From assembly GCA_947313855.1 (NCBI GenBank), contig CAMZNS010000004.1:1-64000 (forward strand): a stretch of 64,000 bases of DNA, read 5' to 3'. The position numbers and the translations under genes are program-made. The stretch comes from an uncultured Deferribacteraceae bacterium. Lineage in GTDB: Bacteria > Chrysiogenota > Deferribacteres > CAMZNJ01. Below, in pieces: positions 1,894 to 57,015 of the stretch. Numbering within the stretch: position 1 is the first letter of the stretch; the number at the start of each line of letters is the position of its first letter. Under the pieces are notes generated by a model that was not told where the DNA came from, searched no databases, and worked only from the letters and a program-made list of their open reading frames with translations.

Positions 1894-1921
1894 AACACAC
1901 CACCTTTAGTTTATATTTGTT

Positions 1922-2053
1922 GTGCGAGCTGTTCACGTTGCTCACGTTGTTCACGTTTGTGCGAGCTGTTCACGTTGCTCACGTTGTTCACGTTTGTGCG
2001 AGCTGTTCACGTTGCTCACGTTGTTCACGTTTGTGCGAGCTGTTCACGTTGCT
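1922..2053. repeat. 37-bp tandem repeat, about 3.6 copies (GTGCGAGCTGTTCACGTTGCTCACGTTGTTCACGTTT)
   Basis: Units at 1922, 1959, 1996 and a partial copy at 2033; essentially identical copies. Confidence 0.97.
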
Positions 2054-22093: not shown

Positions 22094-23125
22094 ATGGTAA
22101 ATATTCGTAGGATAGTTTCTGTTCCACTTTTTGCAATCGTAATGCTAGCACTACCGTTGTTGGTGGCATGCGAGAAGAGATCAGCCCCACAGGTGAATGA
22201 GACCTTTGCTATTGTTGGCGAGGTTCAACCCATATGCTACTATGTGGACGTCATCATCGGTGCCAAGGTGTGCACCCCTTTGTTCCCCCCCACTGTGTCC
22301 CCTGAGGTGTATGAGCTCAAAGCGTCCGACTTGGCTCTGCTGAACCAGAACGTAACCCTGTTCTACTACATATCCACACTGGGCAACGAAGTTACCATAG
22401 ACAAGCTGAAAGCATCCTACCCCGACATCGAGTTTGTTGATCTAGTGGAGGCATACCCGTCCATTGCTGTTGAAACGGCGAGCTGTTTAGTATCGAAGGA
22501 TGCCATACCATTGGCTGTGTTGGAAGACGATCACGATGCCGACCACACAATCGACGACGGACACGATCACGATGCCGACGAATTCCTAGACACCAGCATC
22601 GATCCAGCCGTTGGCGAATTCCTCGCACAATCCCATTACCACGCTAGCGATCCCCATTTGTGGTTGTCCCTTTCGCGTGGAGATCAGATTGTGGCATCCG
22701 TTAGTGAGGCGTTGCGACGCACCTACCCGTTTTTGGCAACAACAATCGATGCCAACAGCGACAGGTTATCATTGGAGATGGAGTACAAGTATGAAGAGGT
22801 GTTGCGACGTATTGCCGACTCAGGTATTCGGGGGTTCGCACTCTACCACCCATCGTTGAACTACTACGCCGACGACTACAATATCTGCTACCTTGCTCTA
22901 GAAGACATGGGGAAATCACCAGTGCCACAAACAGTGAAAAAGATTATCGAAATGTCGGAAGATCTGTCGGTAAAAACAGTATTTGTGCAGAAAGGGTTCC
23001 CCCAGCGAGACCTCGACACCCTCTCAGACGCAATTAACGCACACCTAACACCATTCGATCCCATGGGGTATGACGTAATAGAAACAATCGACAACATCAC
23101 CAACAGTCTCATAAAAAATAAGTAG
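22094..23125 (+). CDS. Zn/Mn ABC transporter substrate-binding lipoprotein (ZnuA/TroA-like)
   Basis: Lipobox LLVACEK; His/Asp-rich loop DDHDADHTIDDGHDHDAD; DPHLWLS motif. Confidence 0.9.
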   Translation: MVNIRRIVSVPLFAIVMLALPLLVACEKRSAPQVNETFAIVGEVQPICYYVDVIIGAKVCTPLFPPTVSPEVYELKASDLALLNQNVTLFYYISTLGNEVTIDKLKASYPDIEFVDLVEAYPSIAVETASCLVSKDAIPLAVLEDDHDADHTIDDGHDHDADEFLDTSIDPAVGEFLAQSHYHASDPHLWLSLSRGDQIVASVSEALRRTYPFLATTIDANSDRLSLEMEYKYEEVLRRIADSGIRGFALYHPSLNYYADDYNICYLALEDMGKSPVPQTVKKIIEMSEDLSVKTVFVQKGFPQRDLDTLSDAINAHLTPFDPMGYDVIETIDNITNSLIKNK

Positions 23126-23164
23126 TGCTGTACGGCAACCAAAAACGGTGAAAAATAAATAACG

Positions 23165-24286
23165 GTGAGCATGGGTATGGATAGCAACGTTTTGCTAGAA
23201 CTAAATGGCGTGGACTACAGCTACCACACAGACAAAAGTGGCAACTCCAAAGTGCTAGACAGTATCTCCATGACTATCCTCAAAGGGGACATGGTTGCCC
23301 TCGTTGGACCAAACGGCGGTGGCAAAACCACCCTAGTCAAAATTATCCTCGGAATACTCAATCCGCAAAAAGGCTCCATTGCAGTCAACATGGACAGGAA
23401 AAAGATAAGCTACGTACCGCAGTACTTCTACAGCGGACGCGACTACCCCCTAAGTGCCATGCAAGCAGTACTCATGGGCATGGGGAAGGGGCACAGAATC
23501 TACACAAGGGCAAACAAAACCCAAGCCATGGAGGTTCTCGCCAAGTTCGGCGTCGACCATGTGGCAAACAGACGGGTGGGAACACTCTCCCCAGGGCAAC
23601 TGCAGAAGGTTATCATCGCCCGAGCGGTCATGAACAAACCGGAACTCATCGTTATGGACGAACCCCTCTCCGGCATCGACGAAAGTGGTCAAGGGGAGAT
23701 TTACGCACATCTGGACACACTCAACAGGGAGGGCACAGCCATTGTTGCCGTAACTCACGACCTGTACGCTGTACCAAAATATTTTCAGACAATTGCGTGT
23801 ATCAAAAAAACACTGCACTTCCATGGTCATAGTAGCAATATGGATGAAGTTGCGAAAGTCATCTACGGAAGCACGGGCACAAGTACCACGGGCACAAGTA
23901 CCACGGGCATATCTACCGATTATCAGCGTTTGGTTCATGTTCATAGTAGCGGTTTGCCTGTGAGGGTTTTGGACTGCCACGAGTGTCGCCACAATCAAAG
24001 TCGTAGTCAAAGTCGTAGCCAAAATCGTCAGGGTGATGCTGGCGACACGTCCCCCTCTGCCCATACGGCACGTGGTCATGACCGCGTGCACGACCATGAC
24101 CACGTGCATGACCGCGTGCACGACCATGACCACGTGCATGACCGCGTGCACGACCGCCACGACCGCGTGCACGACCACGACCGCGTGCACGACCACGACC
24201 ATGACCGCGTGCACGACCGCCATGACCGCGTGCACGACCATGACCACGTGCATGACCGCGTGCACGACCGCCATCCCCATGATTAG
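23165..24286 (+). CDS. Zn/Mn ABC transporter ATPase (ZnuC-like) with a long His/Asp-rich repetitive C-terminal tail
   Basis: GPNGGGKTTLVK Walker A, LSPGQLQKVIIARA signature, LIVMDEPLSGID; tail CHECRHNQ… (HDRVHDHDHVHDRVHD)n. Confidence 0.92.
   Translation: MSMGMDSNVLLELNGVDYSYHTDKSGNSKVLDSISMTILKGDMVALVGPNGGGKTTLVKIILGILNPQKGSIAVNMDRKKISYVPQYFYSGRDYPLSAMQAVLMGMGKGHRIYTRANKTQAMEVLAKFGVDHVANRRVGTLSPGQLQKVIIARAVMNKPELIVMDEPLSGIDESGQGEIYAHLDTLNREGTAIVAVTHDLYAVPKYFQTIACIKKTLHFHGHSSNMDEVAKVIYGSTGTSTTGTSTTGISTDYQRLVHVHSSGLPVRVLDCHECRHNQSRSQSRSQNRQGDAGDTSPSAHTARGHDRVHDHDHVHDRVHDHDHVHDRVHDRHDRVHDHDRVHDHDHDRVHDRHDRVHDHDHVHDRVHDRHPHD
24067..24284 (+). repeat. In-frame minisatellite CATGACCGCGTGCACGACCATGACCACGTG encoding the His/Asp tail of the ABC ATPase
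   Basis: Visible reiteration with modular variants (CATGAC, CACGAC, CGCCAC). Confidence 0.96.
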
Positions 24287-24303
24287 GAGTTGCAAGAGTT
24301 ATT

Positions 24304-25113
24304 ATGTTTGATTTTATTCCGTCGTTCATGGTGAATGCTTATATTTCTGCCCTTTTGATTAGTGTTGTTGTTGGTATTGTTGGTACTTTGGTTGTTGTTA
24401 ATCGGATTACGTACATTGCGAGTTCCATATCTCATTCGTCTTATGGTGGTATCGGTTTGGCGTTTTTTTTCGGTTTGCCACCGTTTTTGGGTGCATTGTT
24501 GTTTGTTCTTCCCGTCGCGGCATTTGTGTCTTACATTAGTTTTCATCATGTTCGTCGAGCGGATGCTTTTATCGGTATGGTTTGGGCGTTGGGGATGTCC
24601 ATCGGAATAATTGCTGTTGATCTTGCTCCCAGCTATCCGGGTGATCTGATGTCCTATCTTTTTGGTAATGTTTTGTTGATACCTCGTGGCGATTTGATGT
24701 TAATCGGTTTGCTTGCTTTGGTTGTGTTTTTGATTGTTGTAGCAATCTACCGTCAGCTTGTGATATTCAGTTTTGACAAGGACTACGCATTGGCTCTTGG
24801 TATCCCTGCACAAGCCCTCCATTTTGTGACGATTTTCATGATTGGTATAGCGTCTGTTTTGTTGATAAAGATGGTTGGTTTGATCTTGGTGATAGCTCTT
24901 TTGACCATGGCACCATTGATAATGGAGAAGTATTCACGCAGTATTGCGTCCATGATGGTTTATACGGCCGTGTTGTCTTTGTTTTTCATGTTATCGGGTT
25001 TGGTGCTTTCTTACTACCTCAACCTTTCCACATCTCCCATGATAATCATAGTTGGGAGCGTAGTATTTTTTGCGGATTATATGTTGTACCGTTGGGTTTG
25101 GGGTCGATCTTAG
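24304..25113 (+). CDS. Zn/Mn ABC transporter permease (ZnuB-like)
   Basis: 269 aa hydrophobic ABC-3-type permease; ISHSSYGGIGLAF, ALGIPAQALHF. Confidence 0.9.
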   Translation: MFDFIPSFMVNAYISALLISVVVGIVGTLVVVNRITYIASSISHSSYGGIGLAFFFGLPPFLGALLFVLPVAAFVSYISFHHVRRADAFIGMVWALGMSIGIIAVDLAPSYPGDLMSYLFGNVLLIPRGDLMLIGLLALVVFLIVVAIYRQLVIFSFDKDYALALGIPAQALHFVTIFMIGIASVLLIKMVGLILVIALLTMAPLIMEKYSRSIASMMVYTAVLSLFFMLSGLVLSYYLNLSTSPMIIIVGSVVFFADYMLYRWVWGRS

Positions 25114-25316: not shown

Positions 25317-27911
<2,595 letters not shown>

Positions 27912-54876: not shown

Positions 54877-54927
54877 ACATACGAATAACAATGCCCCCCG
54901 TTGTGTTTGTGTTAGGAGTTGCTTCGA

Positions 54928-57015
54928 ATGGCTGGTGTAAATAGTGGTGCTCGTGGTGCTGAAGACGGGCGTGCTCATGGTGCTGAAGACGGGCGTGCTC
55001 GTGGTGCTCATGGTGCTGAAGACGGGCGTGCTCATGGTGCTCATGGTGCTGAAGACGGGCGTGCCCGTGGTGCTGAAGACGGGCGTGCTCGTGGTGCTGA
55101 AGACGGGCGTGCTCGTGGTGCTCATGGTGCTCATGGTGCTGAAGACGGGCGTGCTCGTGGTGCTCATGGTGCTGAAGACGGGCGTGCTCGTGGTGCTCGT
55201 GGTGCTCATGGTGCTGAAGACGGGCGTGCTCGTGGTGCTCATGGTGCTGAAGACGGGCGTGCTCATGGTGCTGAAGACGGGCGTGCCCGTGGCTCCCGTG
55301 GCGGCAGAAAAATACTCACAATGAACATAACAAGCAGACGTGTGGGGGTAGTGGCTCTAATCTTGGCGGGGGTATTCGCTGGGTTAGGCACCCCCGGCAT
55401 CTCGCCAACACCTTACTTCGCCTTCGTGGCATTCATACCCATGTTTTGGGTGTGGGACAATGTTCGATCCCATTCAACCTTTACCAAGGGGTATATTTTT
55501 GGGTTCGCCTACTTCTTTGTTAACTCCATATGGCTCTACAACACGGCTTACCAATACGGATTGCCCGCCATCGTTGGTCTTGTGGTGTATGTTGTTCTTT
55601 TCGGCTTAGCATTTTATTACGCATTGATAGCGTTGTTCTATTCTCGCGTCAAATCCCCCCTACTGGTGGGTAGTTTCGTCGGTGGCGTGGAGCTCCTCAA
55701 GGGGGTTCTCCTAACCGGTTACCCGTTCGGCAACGTGGGGGTCATGCTCCATGGTGAGCTGGCACTTATTCAGGGTGCATCCTTTTACGGTGAGATAGGG
55801 CTTTCGGTTCTGGTGATAACGGTCAGTCTTGGTGTTTACCGTGCCATTATGTATTCGCGTCGTAACCTTGTCTATGTTGCTTTGGGGCTTGCGGGGTTGC
55901 TGTTGCCTAACCTTTATTATGCTCCGTACGAGTATGGTTCCGGTGGGGAGAGTGGTGCGTCACAGTTGCATACGGATCTGCCAAGCTATCGCGAAGGGTA
56001 TTCGTGGTCTGGTGCTAGTGCCGACGGTGTTGCCGGCGGTGTTGCCGGCGGTGTTGTTGACGGTGTTGTTGACGGTGAATATTCCGTTTTACTCGTGCAG
56101 ACTGGTCTCGATCAGCGATACAAGTGGAGCGTTCGACGTCATGTGGAGGTGATGTCGTACGTTGGTGATGTTATTCGTGAGGCGGCTCGCATCGCGTCTG
56201 AGACTAACCCCGATATCGTTGTTTTCCCGGAATCGGTGTACCCCCAAAACATGAATGGTGTAGGGGAGATTGAGGTGCTCTTGAACACCTACTTCCCCAC
56301 AACGCCAGTACTCATCGGCGTAATCTACAATCGTCTTGCCAACGGCTCTGTGACCGATCTATCCTCCAACGCTACAGCACGATCTTACTTCAAGCGAAGG
56401 GTTGCGGTGAAAAGTTTTACGTCGGTTTATGCCCATCGCAGTGTTTACGAGAAGTACACCTTGTACGACAAAAATAGACTTGTTTTGTTGGGTGAATACC
56501 TCCCTTTGTACTCGTTGTTAAAGCCTGTTTACAACCTGTTTTATGGGTTTGAATCTGGGGAGGGGTATTCGTCGGGGGAGCAGATAGGTGCAATTAGCGT
56601 GGCGAATAAGTTCCGCATCTTGCCCCTTTTGTGCATGGAGGCGTCGTTTAGTAGTGCTGTTACCCGCTACCAGCCGGATAGTTTCAACGTAATCGCCATT
56701 ATGGGTAACGACGATTGGTTCAAGTCTGATCGTGCCAAGGAGCAACACCTTGCCATGCATACCATGCGTGCTGTTGAGTCTCGTAAGTATGTTTTGCGTT
56801 CGGGTCAAACAGGTATCACCACAGTGATTGAGCCTAGTGGGGCGTATGAGAATAGTGAGGCGGATGGTGTGGCATTTATGCTTCAGAGTTTTCAGACAAG
56901 TGAGTCGATACCCCTGTTTGCGAGAATACATTATTGGTGGCTAGCTTTGCCGTTATTTTTGGGTATGTTTCTTTGGGTAAGACGTTTCGTTTTAAAAAAG
57001 GTGTTTACAAACTGA
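54928..57015 (+). CDS. lnt: Apolipoprotein N-acyltransferase with repetitive N-terminal extension
   Basis: FVAFIPMFWVWDN, LLTGYPFGNVGVMLHGELALIQGASFYGEIGLSVLV, VVFPESVYP, LLCMEASFS, IMGNDDWFKSD. Confidence 0.93.
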   Translation: MAGVNSGARGAEDGRAHGAEDGRARGAHGAEDGRAHGAHGAEDGRARGAEDGRARGAEDGRARGAHGAHGAEDGRARGAHGAEDGRARGARGAHGAEDGRARGAHGAEDGRAHGAEDGRARGSRGGRKILTMNITSRRVGVVALILAGVFAGLGTPGISPTPYFAFVAFIPMFWVWDNVRSHSTFTKGYIFGFAYFFVNSIWLYNTAYQYGLPAIVGLVVYVVLFGLAFYYALIALFYSRVKSPLLVGSFVGGVELLKGVLLTGYPFGNVGVMLHGELALIQGASFYGEIGLSVLVITVSLGVYRAIMYSRRNLVYVALGLAGLLLPNLYYAPYEYGSGGESGASQLHTDLPSYREGYSWSGASADGVAGGVAGGVVDGVVDGEYSVLLVQTGLDQRYKWSVRRHVEVMSYVGDVIREAARIASETNPDIVVFPESVYPQNMNGVGEIEVLLNTYFPTTPVLIGVIYNRLANGSVTDLSSNATARSYFKRRVAVKSFTSVYAHRSVYEKYTLYDKNRLVLLGEYLPLYSLLKPVYNLFYGFESGEGYSSGEQIGAISVANKFRILPLLCMEASFSSAVTRYQPDSFNVIAIMGNDDWFKSDRAKEQHLAMHTMRAVESRKYVLRSGQTGITTVIEPSGAYENSEADGVAFMLQSFQTSESIPLFARIHYWWLALPLFLGMFLWVRRFVLKKVFTN
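54940..55298 (+). repeat. In-frame hierarchical minisatellite at the 5' end of lnt (24-bp GAAGACGGGCGTGCTCGTGGTGCT plus 9-bp CATGGTGCT modules)
   Basis: 11 EDGRA(R/H)GA units separated by variable numbers of (H/R)GA units. Confidence 0.97.

Follow-up and report, generated by a model that had tools for sequence, protein, structure and literature searches.

A His/Asp array on a ZnuC-type ATPase: probably an ordinary histidine-rich end stretched by genome-wide repeat expansion

The ATPase of a putative zinc importer from an uncultured Deferribacteraceae bacterium carries, behind its catalytic domain, a long tail closing in an array of histidines and aspartates, which raises the question of whether that array has been selected to handle metal or merely reflects the genome in which it lies. 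The window—the whole stretch of DNA that was analysed, 64,000 nucleotides with a G+C content of 47.7%—comes from a 1.34-Mb genome of the Deferribacterota in 49 contigs (G000). Its sole same-genus relative, referred to below as the sister species (G001; record CAMZNJ010000055, M_SnakePit_MAG_00002), is Candidatus Rimicarispirillum nautilei (Aube et al.), which lives as a symbiont in the midgut of the vent shrimp Rimicaris exoculata (PMC9636832); the window genome probably represents the other species of that genus, as judged from, among other things, the G+C content and this kinship.

The ATPase gene occupies the middle of a znuA-znuC-znuB operon (22094-25113, all on the + strand; matches to PF01297, PF00005 and PF00950), which the sister species retains. 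An ATPase lying beside an ABC-3 permease and a ZnuA-type binding protein is the arrangement that identifies an ABC importer of the ZnuABC type (zinc/manganese, cluster A-I). The features concerned are as follows:
22094..23125, +, znuA-like zinc/metal-binding protein (PF01297, E=8.1e-28; top NCBIfam model ZnuA, under its cut-off)
near 22524-22582, +, His/Asp-rich loop of ZnuA, DDHDADHTIDDGHDHDAD (shorter counterpart DDHTIDD in the sister species)
23165..24286, +, znuC-like ATPase, 373 residues, GTG start, with ATG at 23171 or 23177 as alternative starts (ORF list, Pfam, NCBIfam)
23255..23668, +, ABC ATPase domain, residues 31-168 (PF00005, 1.1e-27; well folded in the AlphaFold2 model)
23870..24283, +, ZnuC C-terminal tail, residues 236-373, with 30 His (sequence and ORF translation)
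23872..23909, +, 15-bp repeat, 2.5 copies, encoding TGTST and missing in the sister species (Tandem Repeats Finder, sister alignment)
23912..24070, +, non-expanded tail core STDYQRL...DCHECRHNQSRSQ...SAHTA, kept in the sister species (omega 0.083, 53 codons)
23975..23986, +, CHEC (CxxC) motif, CHEC in the sister species too (sequence)
23995..24028, +, 12-bp repeat, 2.8 copies, encoding QSRS, of about the same length in the sister species (Tandem Repeats Finder, sister alignment)
24077..24283, +, His/Asp array, 69 residues (25 His, 21 Asp, 11 Arg, 11 Val, 1 Pro) in units HD(R/H)VHD and HD (HDHHPHD alone in the sister species)
24304..25113, +, znuB-like permease (PF00950, E=1.4e-59; closest NCBIfam model AztB (zinc), under cut-off)

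Concerning the substrate—zinc versus manganese or iron—the top NCBIfam models of all three proteins describe zinc systems (AztA, AztB and ZnuA), all with scores under the cut-offs, and the His/Asp-rich loop of ZnuA is compatible with zinc. The nearest models for the ATPase include AztA, MntA and ZnuC, each again scoring under its cut-off. The zinc ABC transporter ATPase AztA comes top with 154.5 bits, as AztB does for the permease, but the curated cut-offs lie at 220 and 280 bits, so that the protein is to be regarded as a relative rather than as a confirmed member. The znuC product would be an ATPase of the ZnuC/AztA type, powering ABC import of the zinc type.

A preliminary description of the locus had the ZnuC-like reading frame running through the whole tail, and the frame indeed extends from 23165 to the stop at 24286 without interruption (ORF list; PF00005). 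Both the Cys/His motif CHECRHNQ (found as DCHECRHNQ, with CHEC at 23975-23986) and the closing His/Asp array had been rightly recognized, whereas the length given to the tail, about 130 residues, is to be corrected to the 138 residues that follow the ABC fold. Of the three successive minisatellites proposed, all three stretches were found by Tandem Repeats Finder, but the first two amount to just 2.5 and 2.8 copies, and only 24077-24271 is a real array; nor does the latter have the 20-bp unit ascribed to it, its spacings being 12, 18, 21, 30 and 51 bp, each divisible by three (Tandem Repeats Finder). It translates as HDRVHDHDHVHDRVHD..., and its unit is matched 12 times in the window against 0.03 matches expected from shuffles.

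It should be pointed out that an open frame is by itself little proof of translation in this case, since repeats leave several frames open; the same repeat stretch of znuC is covered by overlapping ORFs with 281, 138 and 92 residues. The case for translation is made by the comparison with the sister species and by the same ending (HPHD-stop) resuming past the array. The sister tail, STDYQRLVHVHSSGLPVRVLDCHECQHNQSRSQNRSQSRQGDVGDTSPSAHTAHDHHPHD, is the same tail without the array, lacking the TGTST repeat as well and ending in HDHHPHD only. Across the 53 codons shared by the two tails omega is 0.083, versus 0.092 in the ATPase core, and it falls to 0.023 in the 26 codons from STDYQ to CHECR (two species), the Fisher p-values for synonymous versus non-synonymous changes being 1.5e-6 and 1.5e-7, respectively. 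Since omega is low across the shared codons, selection is acting on the tail as a protein sequence; its retention by the sister species and the constraint on its residues make translation very probable. The objection that the tail might not be translated, owing to a frameshift or a stop, was checked and finds no in-frame stop and purifying selection on the tail core between the two species; an untranslated repeat behind an earlier stop in znuC was rejected on the same two grounds, the selection showing coding in the species pair. Residues 216-373 have a pLDDT below 50 in the AlphaFold2 model, which suggests that they are disordered, low values obtained from a shallow alignment being only suggestive.

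The constrained layer of the tail has counterparts elsewhere in the phylum. In 24 of 24 ZnuC-type homologues examined from the Deferribacterota, the short end after YG/FG keeps Cys and His, as patches such as HDEHxC, CDEC, CAHC, HDHRCATC and others. The window protein resembles them in having its Cys/His patch at the corresponding position behind YG/FG, with CHEC where several have a CxxC of their own (CDEC, CAHC, CATC, CLTC), but they end some 15-40 residues further on and are without an array. Judged by sequence, the Cys/His segment of the tail is a patch of the type in which most ZnuC proteins end. From its composition and conservation, such a patch would bind Zn2+ near the transporter exit on the cytosolic face, as a local acceptor or a weak feedback site.

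His-rich ends are likewise common on ZnuC proteins at large. The preliminary description had proposed surveying homologues for them, and among 13 plasmid-borne ZnuC homologues—picked by core sequence only, in a sample leaning to Proteobacteria—10 have such an end, with at least 6 His directly after the fold; ZnuC from E. coli K-12 also ends His-rich. In the window protein, too, the His-rich stretch directly follows the ATPase fold, which is what defines a His-tailed ZnuC. It shares with the ZnuC proteins of E. coli, Klebsiella, Phaeobacter and Paracoccus the operon partners, the ABC ATPase and the position of the His-rich end right after the fold; their ends, however, mostly measure about 15-70 residues and have no long tandem array, whereas the window protein has 138 residues including an array of 69. 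Long HDHDHVHD tails were found on ZnuC from Thioalkalivibrio, Rhodobacteraceae, Sneathiella and Evansella, in a scan biased by having HDHDHVHD itself among its search patterns.

No paper with a measured function of a His-rich ZnuC tail was found in the open literature, nor one accompanying the solved ZnuC structures 9oko-9okr. Two other systems offer a comparison. H. pylori HspA and SlyD (PMC7840056), proteins with a different main job, likewise carry a His/Cys-rich C-terminal extension in the cytosol, although these extensions bind nickel and have no sequence relation to the ZnuC tail; that of SlyD is dispensable for the role of SlyD in nickel uptake, and this counsels caution in deriving function from His content. 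The cytosolic His-loops of CDF/ZnT proteins (PMC10932157) are also His-rich stretches of variable length on a zinc transporter, but of another transporter family, and one for which effects on transport have been measured.

Between the two species the array differs in length from 69 to about 7 residues, and was gained here, or lost in the sister species, after the two compared species split. Non-metal genes (PcrA, HisS and PseC) differ likewise. The setting is a genome whose disordered ends, loops and spacers hold a great many tandem arrays: 234 kb of it, i.e. the window plus ten further stretches, contain 5.4 arrays per 10 kb covering 4.3% of bases, versus 0.31 per 10 kb and 0.14% over 160 kb taken from four related Deferribacterota (TRF), a density about 17 times higher. 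Of the array rows in the window, 29 of the 34 lying within ORFs have a period divisible by three, versus 3 of the 15 in intergenic DNA (p = 2e-5); gene calls by ORF length favour open repeats, and the p-value stays similar after dropping doubtful ORFs and nested rows.

Arrays of the HD type were found in about eight gene families, two of which serve metal transport (ZnuC and CopA), and the loop of ZnuA, too, exceeds that of the sister species in length. At the N-terminus of the CopA-like copper ATPase (G000 C48:71-2557), CCSSS is followed by about eight HD pairs; the sister assembly yielded no close orthologue. About 16 HD pairs end the PcrA/UvrD helicase of the sister species (G001 C66:13902-15998), whose orthologue in the window genome (G000 C26:75138-77123) ends in GESGHDH. 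The C-terminal tail of HisS consists of HDHDGDHD repeats in the window genome (G000 C35:24951-26498; HDHDGDHDHDGD / HDHDGDHDHDGDHDHDGDHDH) and of DYDNDDDY repeats instead in the sister species (DYDNDDDYDYDN / DYDNDDDYDYDNDDDYDDDD). An internal loop of the aminotransferase PseC reads DDHDHDHDHD here (G000 C35:67429) and holds a longer HD run in the sister species (G001 C37:15615), and a TPR protein (G000 C38:28500-32500) has a long linker of DR/DH repeats with poly-Asp and DADADA runs. The share of metal transporters among these families is probably above that of a random draw, and this is the chief objection to the reading preferred below; pre-existing His-rich seeds, however, explain the surplus equally well as selection.

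As for the origin of the arrays, the exact ZnuC unit, with its GTG, was found only in znuC, simpler (CAYGAC)n arrays occurring elsewhere, and independent local expansions therefore fit better than the spread of a mobile or shared repeat from a single origin, an idea rejected on this basis. A 16-bp repeat of a similar DNA word is located outside long ORFs. Loss of mismatch repair was likewise discarded as the source of the repeats, both species encoding MutS and MutL family proteins.

Based on the above results, it appears quite probable that the window protein is a zinc-importer ATPase with a His tail of the ordinary kind, the disordered end of which has been stretched by genome-wide repeat expansion. 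The array would have arisen from a short end rich in His and Asp, resembling HDHHPHD, through slippage during replication or through unequal recombination; the disorder of this end and the preservation of the frame by the changes in length would explain why the array was tolerated. By analogy with His-tags, it would probably bind metal in vitro, weakly in bulk, and could buffer zinc; no selection for this capacity is visible.

The view of the array as a dedicated metal buffer or sensor, advanced in the preliminary description, has to be weighed here. It would have the array bind cytosolic Zn2+ leaving the permease and slow ATP hydrolysis or dock a partner, with its length tuning the set point. 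The 25 His in an HDxxHD pattern and the constraint on the Cys/His tail speak in its favour, and the long-tailed ZnuC proteins of Thioalkalivibrio, Rhodobacteraceae, Sneathiella and Evansella suggest that such tails are useful on ZnuC, but these distant proteins were found partly through the HDHDHVHD pattern itself and form a biased sample. The sister species, moreover, has the same operon without the array, similar arrays are borne by the helicase PcrA, the tRNA synthetase HisS, the aminotransferase PseC and a TPR protein in one or other of the two genomes, and the window genome has about 17 times the array density of its relatives; the claim is not upheld, and a buffer or sensor of this kind is considered unlikely. 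Still less likely is a variant joining both views, in which slippage throughout the genome supplies disordered protein ends with length variation, and selection has made of one such product, the array, a zinc buffer of tunable length on the importer's cytosolic side; if it held, the symbiont would adjust its metal handling in the vent-shrimp gut by means of a repeat-prone genome.

Nor is there support for the array as the tunable contingency element proposed earlier, with all its spacings multiples of three, a terminal position, and non-metal genes varying likewise in length. Phase variation, in which slippage of the array would toggle the ATPase or the downstream znuB by frameshift, might be suspected from a repeat array within an operon gene and from the large difference in length between the species. 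Gain or loss of such units, however, keeps the frame, and a frameshift so close to the stop codon, past all catalytic parts, would leave the ATPase intact; frameshift phase variation was rejected for these reasons and is regarded as extremely improbable.

An error of short-read metagenome assembly, affecting the length or the presence of the array, has only a slightly better chance of being the explanation, and a very small one. The sister genome was assembled with Megahit from 2 x 150 bp Illumina reads (PMC9636832), and the 207-bp array exceeds one read, if the window genome comes from the same study. The copies of the array nevertheless differ among themselves and leave the frame intact, the HPHD-stop ending follows directly as in the sister species, and similar arrays lie at many other sites in both genomes. 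Should the window assembly also be a short-read one, which is likely, the exact copy number is uncertain.

Under the preferred reading of an ordinary His-rich end stretched by repeat expansion, the ZnuC tail is a longer form of a feature common on zinc-importer ATPases. It calls for caution, too: where repeats crowd a genome, a metal transporter can acquire a conspicuous His-rich array without metal-specific selection, given that a helicase and a tRNA synthetase bear the same arrays. The wider interest lies in the genome itself, that of a reduced vent-shrimp symbiont with about 17 times the array density of its relatives and many arrays inside essential genes despite the presence of mutS and mutL.

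Several further repeats were observed. GyrB has an N-terminal extension of GDGNNDGN repeats (window 25317-25560), with ANANAN and NGNGNG runs instead in the sister species. The reading frame of PrmC opens with a His-rich repeat, translated or not, and an in-frame 300-bp array of RAHGAEDG repeats precedes the ORF of apolipoprotein N-acyltransferase (window 54919-57015) and may lie before its true start. Between genes, a 37-bp unit is repeated in 3.6 copies with 100% identity (window 1920-2053).
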